From the NCBI RefSeq assembly GCF_900112815.1, contig NZ_FOND01000001.1, positions 30,806 to 94,805 of the forward strand: a DNA stretch of 64,000 bases, read 5' to 3'. The notes below the pieces were generated by a model. The model worked only from the letters and a program-made list of their open reading frames with translations, had not been told where the DNA came from and ran no database searches. Positions 60,223 through 64,000 of the stretch are shown here, piece by piece (position 1 is the first letter of the stretch; each line of letters begins with the position of its first letter). The position numbers and the translations under genes were made by a program. The stretch is from Blastococcus tunisiensis (GTDB taxonomy: Bacteria > Actinomycetota > Actinomycetes > Mycobacteriales > Geodermatophilaceae).

Positions 60223-60873
60223 TCAGGCGGCGACCCGCTGGCGCTCGGCGTCCGTGCGGCTGGGCCACATCTTCGCCCCGAGGACGCCGCCGATCGAGGC
60301 CGCCACGATGCCCAGACCCAGGCCCAGGGCGGCCCAGCTGGCACTGGAGGTGGCCACGTCGGCCGCCTGGCCGGCCGCGACATCGGGCAGGTTCGCCTGC
60401 TGGATACTGGTCACGTCGGTCACGACGCCCGCCAGCGAACCGAGCAGGGCCCCGCCGCCGAACAGCGTCAGGAACACGATCGAGACCACCGACAGCGCCC
60501 ACACCAGGATGCCGTGCAGCAGTCCGTCGCTGAACCCGCGCCACACCGCGCTGGCCCCGGCGGTGAGGCCACCGAGGAACAGCGCGATCAGCCCGTTGAT
60601 CCCGCTGAACCAGTCCGCGTTGTTGCCCGTGTCCCCCGGGCCGACGTCCCACCAGCCCAGGGCCAGCGTGGCGACCTGGAGCAGGAGGAAGGTCGGGACG
60701 GCGACGATCAGCCCGGCCCACACCGGACCCCAGCGGACCCGGTCCCGCCGGGGTGGCACCTGGACCGCCGGTGCGACCGCGGTCGCCCCGTCGGCCGGCC
60801 GCTCGTGGACCACCTCCTCGTGGGCGACGTTGTCCTCGAGCGTGGTGTCGGTACGCGTACGGCTCTCGGTCAT
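60223..60873 (-). CDS. membrane protein of unknown function
   Basis: A 216-residue protein with a hydrophilic N-terminal part (MTESRTRTDTTLEDNVAHEE, about 45 residues) and four hydrophobic segments (about residues 49-72, 90-108, 118-145 and 175-198). VRWGPVWAGLIVAVPTFLLLQ resembles the conserved opening of YrzE-like/TIGR04086-like proteins, weak evidence only. GGGAGG lies nine bases before ATG 60873. Confidence 0.7.
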   Translation of the reverse strand: MTESRTRTDTTLEDNVAHEEVVHERPADGATAVAPAVQVPPRRDRVRWGPVWAGLIVAVPTFLLLQVATLALGWWDVGPGDTGNNADWFSGINGLIALFLGGLTAGASAVWRGFSDGLLHGILVWALSVVSIVFLTLFGGGALLGSLAGVVTDVTSIQQANLPDVAAGQAADVATSSASWAALGLGLGIVAASIGGVLGAKMWPSRTDAERQRVAA

Positions 60874-61037
60874 GAGATCGATTCCTCCCGTGCGTCGGGC
60901 GTTCTTCCGGCTGCGCAGGGACGTGGTCTCACCGCCTGCACGGGGAGGGATTCCCCTGTCGTCCGCGGGCACCCCCGATGCCGGTCGGCCGTGACCTGAT
61001 CGTCATGTGCGTCGACCTGCCGCGGGCACCGCCTGAC

Positions 61038-61078
61038 GGGAAACCCACTGGTGGGAGGGCGGGAAACCCTGGTGGGAG
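61038..61078. repeat. direct repeat upstream of the DGGA-peptide gene
   Basis: GGGAAACCC at 61038-61046 and 61061-61069, each followed by TGGTGGGAG after a short gap, with a 23-base period. It lies about 100 bases before the peptide start, a position suited to a regulator or promoter element. Confidence 0.5.
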
Positions 61079-61164
61079 CGGAGGTGTCAGACGAGGATGG
61101 GAGAGGTAAGCAGCGACGGGAGGCTGCCGACCGGCAGTCCCGCACCGACCTGGACGGAGACGCC

Positions 61165-61401
61165 ATGGCTCTCGACGACGACGACATGACCAGCACGGAG
61201 GGTCCGGCCGACGGCGGCGCCTCCGGAACGCCGGGCACGCACGACGGTGGCGCGGACGGTGGCGCCGACGGCGGCGCGCACGGCCCGGCCGACGGCGGTG
61301 CCGACGGCGGTGCCGACGGCGGTGCCGACGGCGGCGCGGACGGCGGTGCCGACGGTGGCGCGGACGGCGGTGCCGATGGCGGCGCGGACGGTTCGGCCTG
61401 A
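61165..61401 (+). CDS. short protein of DGGA tetrapeptide repeats
   Basis: A 78-residue protein not assigned to a known family. Residues 1-26 (MALDDDDMTSTEGPADGGAS and following) are acidic; residues 27-78 are thirteen four-residue units: DGGA three times, HGPA, DGGA eight times, and DGSA. It has no Cys, no aromatic residue, no signal peptide and a strong negative charge. ATG 61165 has GGAG five bases upstream; a GTG at 61084 is an alternative. It lies just before a JmjC-type dioxygenase gene. It could be a modification substrate or a calcium-binding or spacer-type protein; this is inference. The 12-bp DNA repeat could also be unstable. Confidence 0.55.
   Translation: MALDDDDMTSTEGPADGGASGTPGTHDGGADGGADGGAHGPADGGADGGADGGADGGADGGADGGADGGADGGADGSA
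61247..61396 (+). repeat. 12-bp tandem repeat coding for DGGA
   Basis: Units of the type GACGGCGGTGCC, with third-position variants, run in frame through the peptide gene. Variation is mostly synonymous, so the amino acid pattern seems to be kept rather than the DNA. Confidence 0.8.
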
Positions 61402-61419
61402 CCGAGATCCCGACCACCC

Positions 61420-61453
61420 AGGGCCGGGCGGAGCATGAGCTCCGCCCGGCCCT
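61420..61453 (+). terminator. 15-bp perfect hairpin between peptide and dioxygenase genes
   Basis: Arms 61420-61434 and 61439-61453 pair exactly around ATGA. It begins 19 bases after the peptide stop and ends 16 bases before the next start. It may act as partial terminator, keeping peptide expression above enzyme expression, or hide the ribosome site of the next gene. Confidence 0.7.
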
Positions 61454-61469
61454 GCGGCGGTGCACGAAC

Positions 61470-62675
61470 ATGGACCCCGAGGTCTTCGCGGACCGGTACT
61501 GGGCCCGCAGGCCGCTGCTGACCCGCGCTCAGGACACCGGCGGCTCCTTCGCCGACCTGCTCGACCTGTCCGCCGTCGACGAGCTGCTCTCCCGCCGCGG
61601 GCTGCGCACGCCCTTCCTGCGCATCGCCAAGGACGGCACCGTGGTGGACGCGAAGCGGTTCACCACGTCCGGCGGCGCCGGGGCCGAGATCGGCGATCAG
61701 GTGTCCTCCGACGCGGTGCTCCGGCTGTTCGCCGACGGCAGCACCGTCGTGCTGCAGGGTCTGCACCGGCTCTGGCCGCCGCTGATCGAGTTCGCCGACC
61801 AGCTGGCCGCCGACCTGGGGCATCCCACCCAGGTGAACGCCTACGTCACCCCGCCGTCCTCGCGCGGGTTCAGCCCGCACTACGACGTGCACGACGTCTT
61901 CGTCCTGCAGGTGGCCGGAGAGAAGCACTGGACGATCCACGAGCCGGTGCTGCGCGATCCGCTCCGGACGCAGCCCTGGAACGACCGGGCCGACGAGGTG
62001 GCCGCCGCCGCCGATCGGGAGCCGGTCGTCGACGCCGTGCTGCGGCCCGGCGACGCCCTCTACCTCCCGCGCGGCTACCTGCACTCGGCGACGGCGCTGG
62101 GCGAGATCAGCGCGCACCTGACCATCGGGGTCCACTCCGTGACCCGCTGGTCGGCGGCGGAGTCCGCCCTGGACCTGCTCCGAACCCTCGCCGCCGAGGA
62201 CGAGCGGCTGCGGACCTCCCTGCCCCTCGGTCTCGACCTGAGCCGCCCCGACTCCGTCCGGGACGAGGTCGCCACGGTGATCGCCGGCCTGCAGGACTGG
62301 CTGGGCCGGGTCGACCCCACCGACGTGGCCGACCGCCTGCGCGCCGGCACCTGGGCACAGGTGCGTCCCGAGCCGGTGGCGCCGCTGGCGCAGTCCGCGG
62401 CGGCCGCCGCACTCGGCCCCGGAACGGTGCTGCGGCTGCGCCGCCGACTGCGGTGCAGCCTGCGGGACGCCCCCGACGGCCGGCTGACCCTGCTGGCGGG
62501 ACGGCGCTCGCTGTCCTTCCCGGCCTCGGTGCGGGATGCACTGGCCGCGCTCCTGGACGCCGGCGAACTCAAGGTCGGGGACCTGCCCGGCCTCGAGCCC
62601 GGCGACCGGCTGACCCTCGCGCGACGGCTGGTGACCGAGGCGATCGCCACCGTCCCCGATCCCGGCCCGGCGTGA
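61470..62675 (+). CDS. JmjC/cupin-fold Fe(II)/2-oxoglutarate protein hydroxylase-like
   Basis: A 401-residue protein of the cupin-4/ROXA-like family, whose known members hydroxylate side chains in proteins. Iron ligands are visible as HYD (His137, Asp139) in FSPHYDVHDVFVLQV and His205 in LPRGYLHSA; GEKHWTIHEP supplies conserved lysine and histidine. The C-terminal 150 residues are helical and may include a winged-helix part. ATG 61470 has a weak ribosome site and the frame is open upstream to CTG 61398 over the peptide stop, so the start is uncertain. It overlaps the next gene by a GTGA junction. Confidence 0.85.
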   Translation: MDPEVFADRYWARRPLLTRAQDTGGSFADLLDLSAVDELLSRRGLRTPFLRIAKDGTVVDAKRFTTSGGAGAEIGDQVSSDAVLRLFADGSTVVLQGLHRLWPPLIEFADQLAADLGHPTQVNAYVTPPSSRGFSPHYDVHDVFVLQVAGEKHWTIHEPVLRDPLRTQPWNDRADEVAAAADREPVVDAVLRPGDALYLPRGYLHSATALGEISAHLTIGVHSVTRWSAAESALDLLRTLAAEDERLRTSLPLGLDLSRPDSVRDEVATVIAGLQDWLGRVDPTDVADRLRAGTWAQVRPEPVAPLAQSAAAAALGPGTVLRLRRRLRCSLRDAPDGRLTLLAGRRSLSFPASVRDALAALLDAGELKVGDLPGLEPGDRLTLARRLVTEAIATVPDPGPA

Positions 62676-63634
62676 CCGACGGCTCCCCCCGGGACCCCGA
62701 CGACTTCTGCCGCACGCAGGTGCCGGCCCGGCCCGCGGGGCGGCTGGACGACGCCCGCTGCTCGGTGCAGGCGCTGCTCCGCGGCGACTCCCCCATGGCC
62801 ACCGCCGCCCCCGCGCAGCGCTGGCTGCTCATCGAGCAGCCGGGCCCGTGGGGCCGCGACGCCCTGACCGAGTCGCGCTTCGACGCCGCGGTCGCCCCCG
62901 ACCTGGCCCGCCGTTCCCGCGCCGAAGGAGTGCGGCTGCTGCTCGTCCGGCGTCCCGGCGACCGGCTGGCCGACTCCGGGCACCGTTGGGCCTATGGCGA
63001 CAGCCGCCCGGGACGCGAGGGGCTGTGGTGGTCGGTGCGGTCGTCGGACGCCGACCTGCTCACCGCCCCCTGGGACGGATCGGTCGGCGAACCGGCGCCG
63101 GGCCCGACGTACCTGGTGTGCACGCACGGCGGGCACGACGCGTGCTGCGCCCTGCGCGGACGGCCGCTGGCCCGTGCCCTGCCGGCCCCGGCGGACGTCT
63201 GGGAGTGCAGCCACCTGGGCGGGGACCGGTTCGCGGCCAACGTGCTGGTGCTGCCGCACGGCTTCTACTACGGGCAGGTGCCCGGGGACGGGGCCGAGCT
63301 GGTCGCCGCCCACAGCCGCGGAAGGGTGGCGCTGCCCTGGCTGCGGGGGCGTGCCGGCGTCCCCATCCCGGGCCAGGCCGCCCAGCACTTCGCCCGCGGC
63401 GAGCTGGGGCTGCTCGACGTCGACGCGCTGCCGGTCGTGGCGGTCACGCAGCACACACCGGCCGGTGCGTCGGTCGAGCGGTGGACGGTGACCCTCGCGG
63501 GGCCGGACGGCGACGTGGTGACCAGCGTCGAGAGCCGGCCCTCCGCGGTGGCCGCCCCGCTGACCTGCCACGCCACGCACCCGGCGCACTCGCGGACCTG
63601 GCACGTGGCGTTCGCGGCCGCCGACGCCCCGTGA
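62672..63634 (+). CDS. sucrase/ferredoxin-like family protein
   Basis: A 320-residue protein of the sucraseferredoxin-like family (thioredoxin-like ferredoxin fold). The cluster motif is CTHGGHDACCALRGRPLARAL near residue 150, with ECSHLGGDRFAANVLVLPHG after it; Cys and His residues could bind a [2Fe-2S] cluster. An extra early Cys (DDARCSVQAL) is present. GTG 62672 overlaps the dioxygenase stop, so both are translationally coupled. It may supply electrons to the iron enzyme; that is inference. Confidence 0.83.
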   Translation: MTDGSPRDPDDFCRTQVPARPAGRLDDARCSVQALLRGDSPMATAAPAQRWLLIEQPGPWGRDALTESRFDAAVAPDLARRSRAEGVRLLLVRRPGDRLADSGHRWAYGDSRPGREGLWWSVRSSDADLLTAPWDGSVGEPAPGPTYLVCTHGGHDACCALRGRPLARALPAPADVWECSHLGGDRFAANVLVLPHGFYYGQVPGDGAELVAAHSRGRVALPWLRGRAGVPIPGQAAQHFARGELGLLDVDALPVVAVTQHTPAGASVERWTVTLAGPDGDVVTSVESRPSAVAAPLTCHATHPAHSRTWHVAFAAADAP

Positions 63635-63654: not shown

Positions 63655-64000
63655 CGGTATGACCCGACCGATCCCGTGGGGAGCGGTTGCGGGTCGGGGC
63701 CTTCCACACCAGAAACGTGGGTTACCGGGGAGGAGCCCCTGCCCGGCCTATCCGACATGTGTGGGAGGCCCCGATGGGTGTGGAGCGTACGAGCGTCGGG
63801 CTGGACGTGCACGCACGATCGGTGTCCGCGGCGGCGATCGACGGCGTCACGGGCGAGTTGATCAAGAAGCGGCTGGTACCCACGACCGACACCGTGATCG
63901 AGTGGGTGCGTGGCCTGCCGGGTCCGGCGGCGGTCACCTACGAGGCCGGGCCGACCGGGTTCGGGCTGGCCCGGGCACTGGCCACCGCGGGGATCCGCTG
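63655..64000 (+). mobile_element. IS110-type insertion sequence, left part only
   Basis: The transposase N-terminus runs to the window edge and the element continues beyond. Its left boundary cannot be placed; it lies somewhere in the 139 bases after the ferredoxin-like gene. IS110-family elements carry a noncoding left end that, in the IS621 group, is transcribed as a bridge RNA; 63660-63773 is the place to look. Confidence 0.6.
63774..64000 (+). CDS. IS110 family transposase (3' end outside window)
   Basis: The first 75 codons of a DEDD-type transposase. The opening ERTSVGLDVHARSVSAAAID holds the first catalytic aspartate of the RuvC-like domain, and VTYEAGPTGFGLARAL is the family's Glu-containing second motif. 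GGGAGG lies five bases before ATG 63774. The rest, including the Tnp_20 domain with the catalytic serine, is outside the window. Confidence 0.85.
   Translation, partial: MGVERTSVGLDVHARSVSAAAIDGVTGELIKKRLVPTTDTVIEWVRGLPGPAAVTYEAGPTGFGLARALATAGIR

Follow-up and report, generated by a model that had tools for sequence, protein, structure and literature searches.

FIH oxidises Asn and Asp residues in ankyrin repeats. The ribosomal oxygenases have an architecture of JmjC, dimerisation and winged-helix domains (PMC6006756; this and all papers below are cited from excerpts), and an action of FIH on aspartyl residues has been mentioned (PMC9994133). BipG, a JmjC enzyme, hydroxylates an ornithine in the precursor of a ribosomally synthesized and post-translationally modified peptide (RiPP) (PMC12707348). 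Proteins of family PF08007 with folds resembling the RiPP recognition element have been noted, with bacterial homologs in RiPP-like contexts (PMC12710340). Here we analysed a stretch of 64,000 nt from Blastococcus tunisiensis (contig NZ_FOND01000001.1, positions 30,806 to 94,805; the window hereafter), in which a gene for an Asp-rich repeat peptide lies just upstream of one for a PF08007 protein, referred to below as the cupin. Comparison of the sequences makes it rather probable that this locus is a RiPP-like operon, comprising a 78-residue precursor and a JmjC/cupin protein as the predicted modifying 2-oxoglutarate (2OG)/Fe(II) oxygenase, the modification probably being beta-hydroxylation of Asp.

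The peptide gene and its predicted modifying enzyme

The features that carry this reading are the following.

61165..61401, plus strand: precursor-like peptide gene of 78 aa (ATG at 61165, TGA at 61399-61401), with a counterpart 5' of the cupin gene in relatives
61242..61391, plus strand: 12-bp tandem array coding for the DGGA units (Tandem Repeats Finder, period 12, 12.5 copies)
61398..62675, plus strand: gene for the JmjC/cupin (PF08007) 2OG-Fe(II) oxygenase (ATG-based model 61470-62675), recognised by profile, conserved ligands and structure model

The peptide consists of an acidic leader, MALDDDDMTSTEG, and an Asp-Gly-Gly-Ala core of 12 DGGA units that closes with DGSA. The 13 units make up 52 of the 78 residues, as the original prediction, made from the letters of the window, had described. 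That prediction had also called the codon variation in the repeat mainly synonymous; the 14 bases that vary among the 12 DGGA units all fall at codon position 3, none at positions 1 or 2. Among 73 Geodermatophilaceae members, the length of the peptide ranges from 58 to 130 aa. NCBIfam placed none of four window proteins in a family and, when searched with seven peptides, gave a single irrelevant match (E 2.7; score 7.7 bits, cut-off 150).

The cupin matches the PF08007 JmjC_2 profile at 1.1e-27, and the claim of a cupin/JmjC iron enzyme with HxD...H ligands held, the triad being intact. Numbered from ATG 61470, the iron ligands are H137-x-D139...H205, with H137 and H205 kept in 230 of 230 homologs and D139 in 229. 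K152 is likewise conserved in all 230 and aligns with a lysine of NO66 that we take to be 2OG-binding. The structure model (predicted local distance difference test score, pLDDT, 90.2) has the NO66 fold, with a whole-chain match that includes the JmjC, dimerisation and winged-helix parts; its C-terminal part is made of strands 339-343, 349-353 and 356-360, a helix at 362-374, a short strand at 376-378 and a helix at 387-399. Position 220, aligned with the substrate-contact serine of NO66 and MINA53, is Gly in 225 of the 230 homologs; the NO66 numbering in this alignment (Ser421) is in part our assumption. In NO66 and MINA53, this serine (Ser421/Ser257) contacts the substrate His (PMC9994133). 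The source genome of the window has one cupin of this kind. Of 7996 scored proteins, 6443 reached 1e-20 with the cupin, and the best 120 of these were examined.

The original prediction had called for a check of whether the repeat gene accompanies the cupin gene in related genomes, and it does so almost throughout. The Geodermatophilaceae set comprised the best 80 of 115 relatives from a cupin scan of named genomes; 78 of its members are named for this family or its genera, and the other two, L005 (named Bacillus, unverified) and L074 (a Frankiales bacterium), have closely similar sequences. A DGGA-type open reading frame (ORF) was present just 5' of the cupin gene in 78 of 78 loci with readable upstream sequence, the contig ending at that point in the remaining two (L062 and L074). 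The ORF could be read complete with its start in 73 of the 78, and the distance from the peptide end to the start of the cupin profile match was 17 to 190 nt. The dinB gene lay in the fetched flank of 67 of the 68 loci with full upstream flanks, indicating a stable chromosomal place.

Outside this family, a profile search (E <= 1e-20, distant relatives included) detected the cupin in 119 of the 200 genomes searched from the order and in 121 of 394 sampled across the class. Cupin places scoring above 200 bits outside the Geodermatophilaceae numbered 130, of which 110 were fetched and read; those left out were nine relatives from family f16 and eleven more places, of which at least four are partial. 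Family f8 would be Mycobacteriaceae, as relatives of its sequences are named Mycobacterium and Mycolicibacterium, and f16, also by indirect assignment, is probably Micromonosporaceae. In all 110 loci, an ORF rich in Asp and small residues ended within 330 nt upstream of the cupin gene by a fixed composition criterion, which replaced a narrower leader pattern that matched 49 of the 110; in a control confined to window ORFs of at least 250 aa, some of which are not genes, 6 of 136 passed. A script rule combined with hand-set labels divided the 110 peptides into 98 of DxGA type, 10 with other Asp repeats and two unclear (L204 and L209, where the Asp-rich ORF upstream of the cupin has no clear repeats). 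A clear Asp-repeat gene is found 5' of the cupin gene in 108 of these 110 orthologs of other families. The 10 loci with other repeats share the leader kind, for example TLRDEDITTSPTATAPGGDADQGDS... and ALTDDDILTT...DADTTDGG. Compared by eye, the leaders MALDDDDMTS, SLNDDDISTT, TLRDEDITTT and ALTDDDILTT precede DGGA, DADQGDS, DPAG or DADTTD cores; in some lineages (e.g., L138 and L212) the leader is shorter or unlike these. The spacing between peptide and cupin varies from 28 to 171 nt outside the Geodermatophilaceae. A protein search with one mycobacterial-type peptide returned 84 relatives, each named one being a "hypothetical protein", and the sources named among them were Mycobacterium, Mycolicibacterium, Rhodococcus, Dietzia, Leifsonia and a soil metagenome.

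Forty lower-scoring cupins (109 to 211 bits), picked from lower search rows, were meant as negative controls. This use was dropped and the loci were treated as evidence instead, since 30 of the 40 had, by eye, a short Asp-containing, precursor-like peptide upstream (15 of the 40 by the fixed criterion within 600 nt). Five of these loci have DADGTDGD-like repeats, two have DNDPSD or DPDPSD, 17 have peptides such as ...TSRDITAGGDSDGTDSSSDFI and MDPIEVEVEDLAEVTSRDITAGGDSDGTDSSSDFI, and six (L224-L228 and L233) have MAQEQSGTQAPDSGLLLEVEKIPTAVDRGKANGAAADNDGNDG and similar peptides of 40 to 43 residues ending in ADNDGND(G). On a tree of 158 enzymes, built by a quick method with several long branches unsure and including eight Geodermatophilaceae rows with verified peptides, peptide type changes nine times, the minimum for 10 groups; the shuffled mean was 50.6, and 0 of 200 shuffles were as low. 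The DxGA type needs two changes because L204 and L209 sit inside it, and three of the smaller peptide groups form single branches with starred support of 100 (17 rows), 99 (6 rows) and 99 (5 rows).

Two of the distant groups have further features of their own. In one clade of distant cupins, all 17 members (L242-L251 and L253-L259) have a peptide of 35 to 40 residues with an EVEVEDL-type leader and the ending DGTDSSSDFI or DGTDGSSDFI (DGSDGSSDFI in one), its end lying 168 to 294 nt upstream of the match to the cupin profile; from their sequences, these peptides look like a separate RiPP family. In L224-L228 and L233, the peptide ends about 100 nt before the profile match, and the same loci contain a Suc_Fer gene of the kind described below.

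The gene junctions, the third gene and the surroundings

Four further features lie around the two genes.

61154..61159, plus strand: Shine-Dalgarno-like ACGGAG, seen in the sequence, preceding the peptide gene
61398..61401, plus strand: CTGA, where the peptide stop TGA overlaps a CTG that is in frame with the cupin and is its probable start (from the C before TGA and the frame distance)
61420..61453, plus strand: conserved stem-loop within the 5' part of the cupin frame (z -6.9; covariation)
62672..63634, plus strand: gene for a Suc_Fer-like (PF06999) protein with conserved Cys/His, whose GTG start overlaps the cupin stop (62673-62675) as GTGA

GGAG-type motifs also stand ahead of many peptide starts in related loci. 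The cupin probably does not begin at ATG 61470, because the corresponding codon is an ordinary start (ATG, GTG or TTG) in only 14 of 73 Geodermatophilaceae loci and the cupin frame is open upstream of it, with a conserved RPALRRC. In all 73 complete peptides, a C precedes the stop (GCC TGA in 72, GTC TGA in one), GCC making up 58% of the other Ala codons in the peptide genes, and the spacing between peptide stop and cupin frame equals 2 mod 3 in 69 of the 73. Judging from this pattern, CTG 61398 is probably the cupin start and would couple the two genes. This assignment is uncertain, because third positions do not vary in excess over the first 21 nt after the CTG (mean entropy 0.97, 0.93 and 0.73 at positions 1, 2 and 3). 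That result, together with an alternative GTG in 12 of the 69 in-frame loci and with four out-of-frame loci (three from Klenkia, each having its own ordinary start codon, and L050, which has none and does not fit), weighs against the CTG start and against the operon reading as well. A programmed -1 frameshift fusing peptide and cupin was considered because the two frames lie that way; it is not preferred, no slippery heptamer having been seen and outgroup cupins such as L182 to L185 reading M directly before LSRC.

The 87 nt 3' of the peptide stop have a folding energy of -54.1 kcal/mol (z = -6.9; none of 200 shuffled sequences did as well). In the consensus of 37 sequences (the window and 36 of the 69 in-frame loci, out of 70 sequences in all, the longer Modestobacter forms and L028, where the stretch is lost, being left out), 16 pairs are formed, four of them with compensatory changes, one of these four having both partners altered in 16 of the 37 rows. 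The hairpin noted after the peptide gene is thus a covarying structure, and it does not simply lie between genes, as the cupin frame runs through it.

2OG oxygenases normally work without a reductase. The original prediction had the third protein, a sucrase/ferredoxin-like protein overlapping the cupin by GTGA, feed electrons to the enzyme. Its identity and its overlap are as described: the protein scores 62.1 bits with PF06999 (cut-off 34.9), and GTG 62672 is its start. The conserved Suc_Fer residues are C30, C150, H152, H155, C158, C159, H181 and C299; all of these except C30 occur in 78 of 78 family relatives and in 79 to 82 of 83 others and are putative cluster ligands. By sequence, the protein has no relative in the PDB, and a structure model of it (pLDDT 57) was not used. 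The gene was found in 78 of the 80 Geodermatophilaceae loci, the two misses having less than 200 nt left downstream (79 of 80 by a second search), and in 83 of the 110 fetched loci elsewhere, always on the cupin strand. It was not found in the other 27, with 1.1 to 1.5 kb or more downstream examined. Seven f16 genomes had no Suc_Fer match anywhere at 1e-10, and the same search gave one each in three f8 and f4 genomes; five of the seven carry peptide and cupin (L125, L126, L147, L150 and L164). The electron-feeding role is weakened by these absences: since the gene is missing from some loci where peptide and cupin are present, it would be a frequent accessory rather than a required electron source. 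The last four bases at the junction of cupin stop and Suc_Fer gene in the 80 family loci are GTGA in 55, ATGA in 12, CTGA in 12 and GTAG in one, and from these sequences CTG may serve as a start here too.

The neighbourhood check at related loci covered five named window genes. On the minus strand at 60223-60972, a divergent gene encodes a 249-residue hydrophobic, membrane-like protein with no Pfam match; it is near only 11 of 80 related loci and is therefore probably not part of the system. A 21-bp direct repeat of 1.9 copies at 61037-61078 stands some 90 bp 5' of the peptide gene and may serve in regulation. An ORF at 63774-64000 (MGVERTSVGLDVHARSVSAAAIDG...) runs off the window end and is presumably the start of an IS110-type transposase; a Pfam search with the 75 residues inside the window gave no family. 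The 80 related loci gave no tblastn match to it, which makes a recent insertion next to the operon probable.

Proposed pathway and competing explanations

Two marks of a RiPP system are found here. A short precursor gene lies beside the gene for a modifying enzyme and is kept jointly with it, in the 78 of 78 and 108 of 110 loci and with nine type changes on the tree, and a conserved leader is joined to a more variable core. The proposal that the peptide is the cupin's substrate now appears to be the best reading of the pairing, the intact catalytic residues and the way in which peptide type tracks the enzyme tree. Asp is the predicted target because it is common to the core types, several of which lack His. 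We propose that the leader (MALDDDDMTS and variants) would dock on the cupin, perhaps on its C-terminal winged-helix domain, and that the flexible core would thread through the active site, where many Asp residues would be oxidised. The product would be a poly(hydroxy-Asp) chain, which at a guess from its chemistry might bind metals, for instance Fe(III) or Ca ions. A high ratio of substrate to enzyme could result from a weak CTG start and from the stem-loop that follows the precursor gene, and the Suc_Fer protein may be an accessory for redox or iron supply that is dispensable in some lineages.

Some further observations bear on the operon reading without favouring it. Among 200 genomes, 149 had a hit to the pattern [HQDE]DGGADG and 112 a hit to the leader pattern, in each case including some without the cupin (e.g., G003 and G006; G004 and G043), in counts of raw matches unread individually. 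Since repeats evolve by slippage, little can be concluded from repetition by itself. By eye, no upstream Asp peptide was seen in 10 of the 40 distant cupins.

The cupin might also modify the peptide otherwise, hydroxylating a recurring His or making cross-links or dehydro- or cleaved residues. The nearest solved folds act on His (NO66 and MINA53) or Arg (YcfD) rather than Asp, and His recurs in many cores as HDGGADG, which makes it a possible target. We nevertheless think this unlikely, as His is absent from the 12 DGGA units of the window and from several core types (L191, L198 and L219), and the serine that contacts the substrate His is replaced by Gly in nearly all cupin homologs. The same loss of the substrate-contact serine argues against a second explanation, namely that a ribosomal protein is what the cupin oxidises, in line with some database labels, and that the peptide, an acidic protein separate from this activity, stays next to it through operon structure. 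The peptide gene stands beside the cupin across many families, its type switching with the enzyme clade, and the cupin itself occurs patchily in the order and the class, which leaves this explanation improbable. A third explanation, in which the upstream ORF serves chiefly to regulate the cupin gene as a translational or RNA leader and its protein has no role, would fit the covarying stem-loop and the CTGA overlap but is very improbable, since the window's repeat units vary at synonymous positions only and leader and core residues recur in distant families despite the varied cupin spacing.

Implications and comparison with known systems

On the reading of the locus as a RiPP-like operon, an enzyme often labelled a ribosome modifier is probably, to judge from its gene context, the maker of an undescribed modified-peptide family in many actinobacteria. 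A wider claim, which we put forward tentatively and find slightly harder to credit than to doubt, is that an actinobacteria-wide class, reaching through many families from Geodermatophilaceae to mycobacteria, uses a JmjC enzyme with the ribosomal-oxygenase fold to make a metal-binding poly(beta-hydroxyaspartate) polymer, that the substrate peptide has been swapped repeatedly (DGGA, DADQGDS, DADTTD, DSDGTDSSSDFI, DNDGND and DNDPSD), and that many actinobacterial proteins named L16 Arg81 hydroxylase or NO66 are peptide modifiers. If so, a large oxygenase family would be partly mis-named, and its real substrates would already be known by position, as small upstream ORFs called "hypothetical protein" where they are named at all. 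The system would be among the simplest oxygenase-based peptide systems, yielding a repeat polymer that is programmed by its gene and differs in length from genome to genome, and would allow one to test how enzymes of the ribosomal-oxygenase fold gain substrates.

The Asp-repeat peptide family was not found in the literature searched, which lacks most subscription journals, so that it may have been described elsewhere. Its novelty is most at risk from a 2025 paper in the Journal of the American Chemical Society on macrocyclization by 2OG oxygenases in RiPPs, cited in PMC12710340.

Among described systems, SmaO, from a graspetide cluster, and PesHI of the nitrilobacillins, a multinuclear non-haem iron-dependent oxidative enzyme (MNIO), put beta-hydroxy-Asp on a precursor, as predicted here (PMC13097080; PMC13060819). 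They differ in that the excerpts available mention no Asp-repeat core for them and in that PesHI, as an MNIO, is an unrelated enzyme. BipG and PbsQ of the biphenomycin RiPPs are likewise JmjC-type 2OG hydroxylases acting on a ribosomal precursor (PMC12707348; PMC12257519). The biphenomycin clusters are multi-enzyme, with an MNIO, a B12-radical S-adenosylmethionine enzyme, an arginase and a protease (PMC12257519), whereas the cupin is the only obvious modifying enzyme in the stretches fetched here. FIH resembles the proposed system as a JmjC enzyme acting on repeated Asp/Asn motifs. With NO66 (RIOX1), MINA53 (RIOX2) and YcfD, the cupin shares the whole-chain JmjC, dimerisation and winged-helix architecture and the iron ligands; unlike them, it has Gly in place of the substrate-contact serine, and its gene is paired with that of an Asp-rich peptide.

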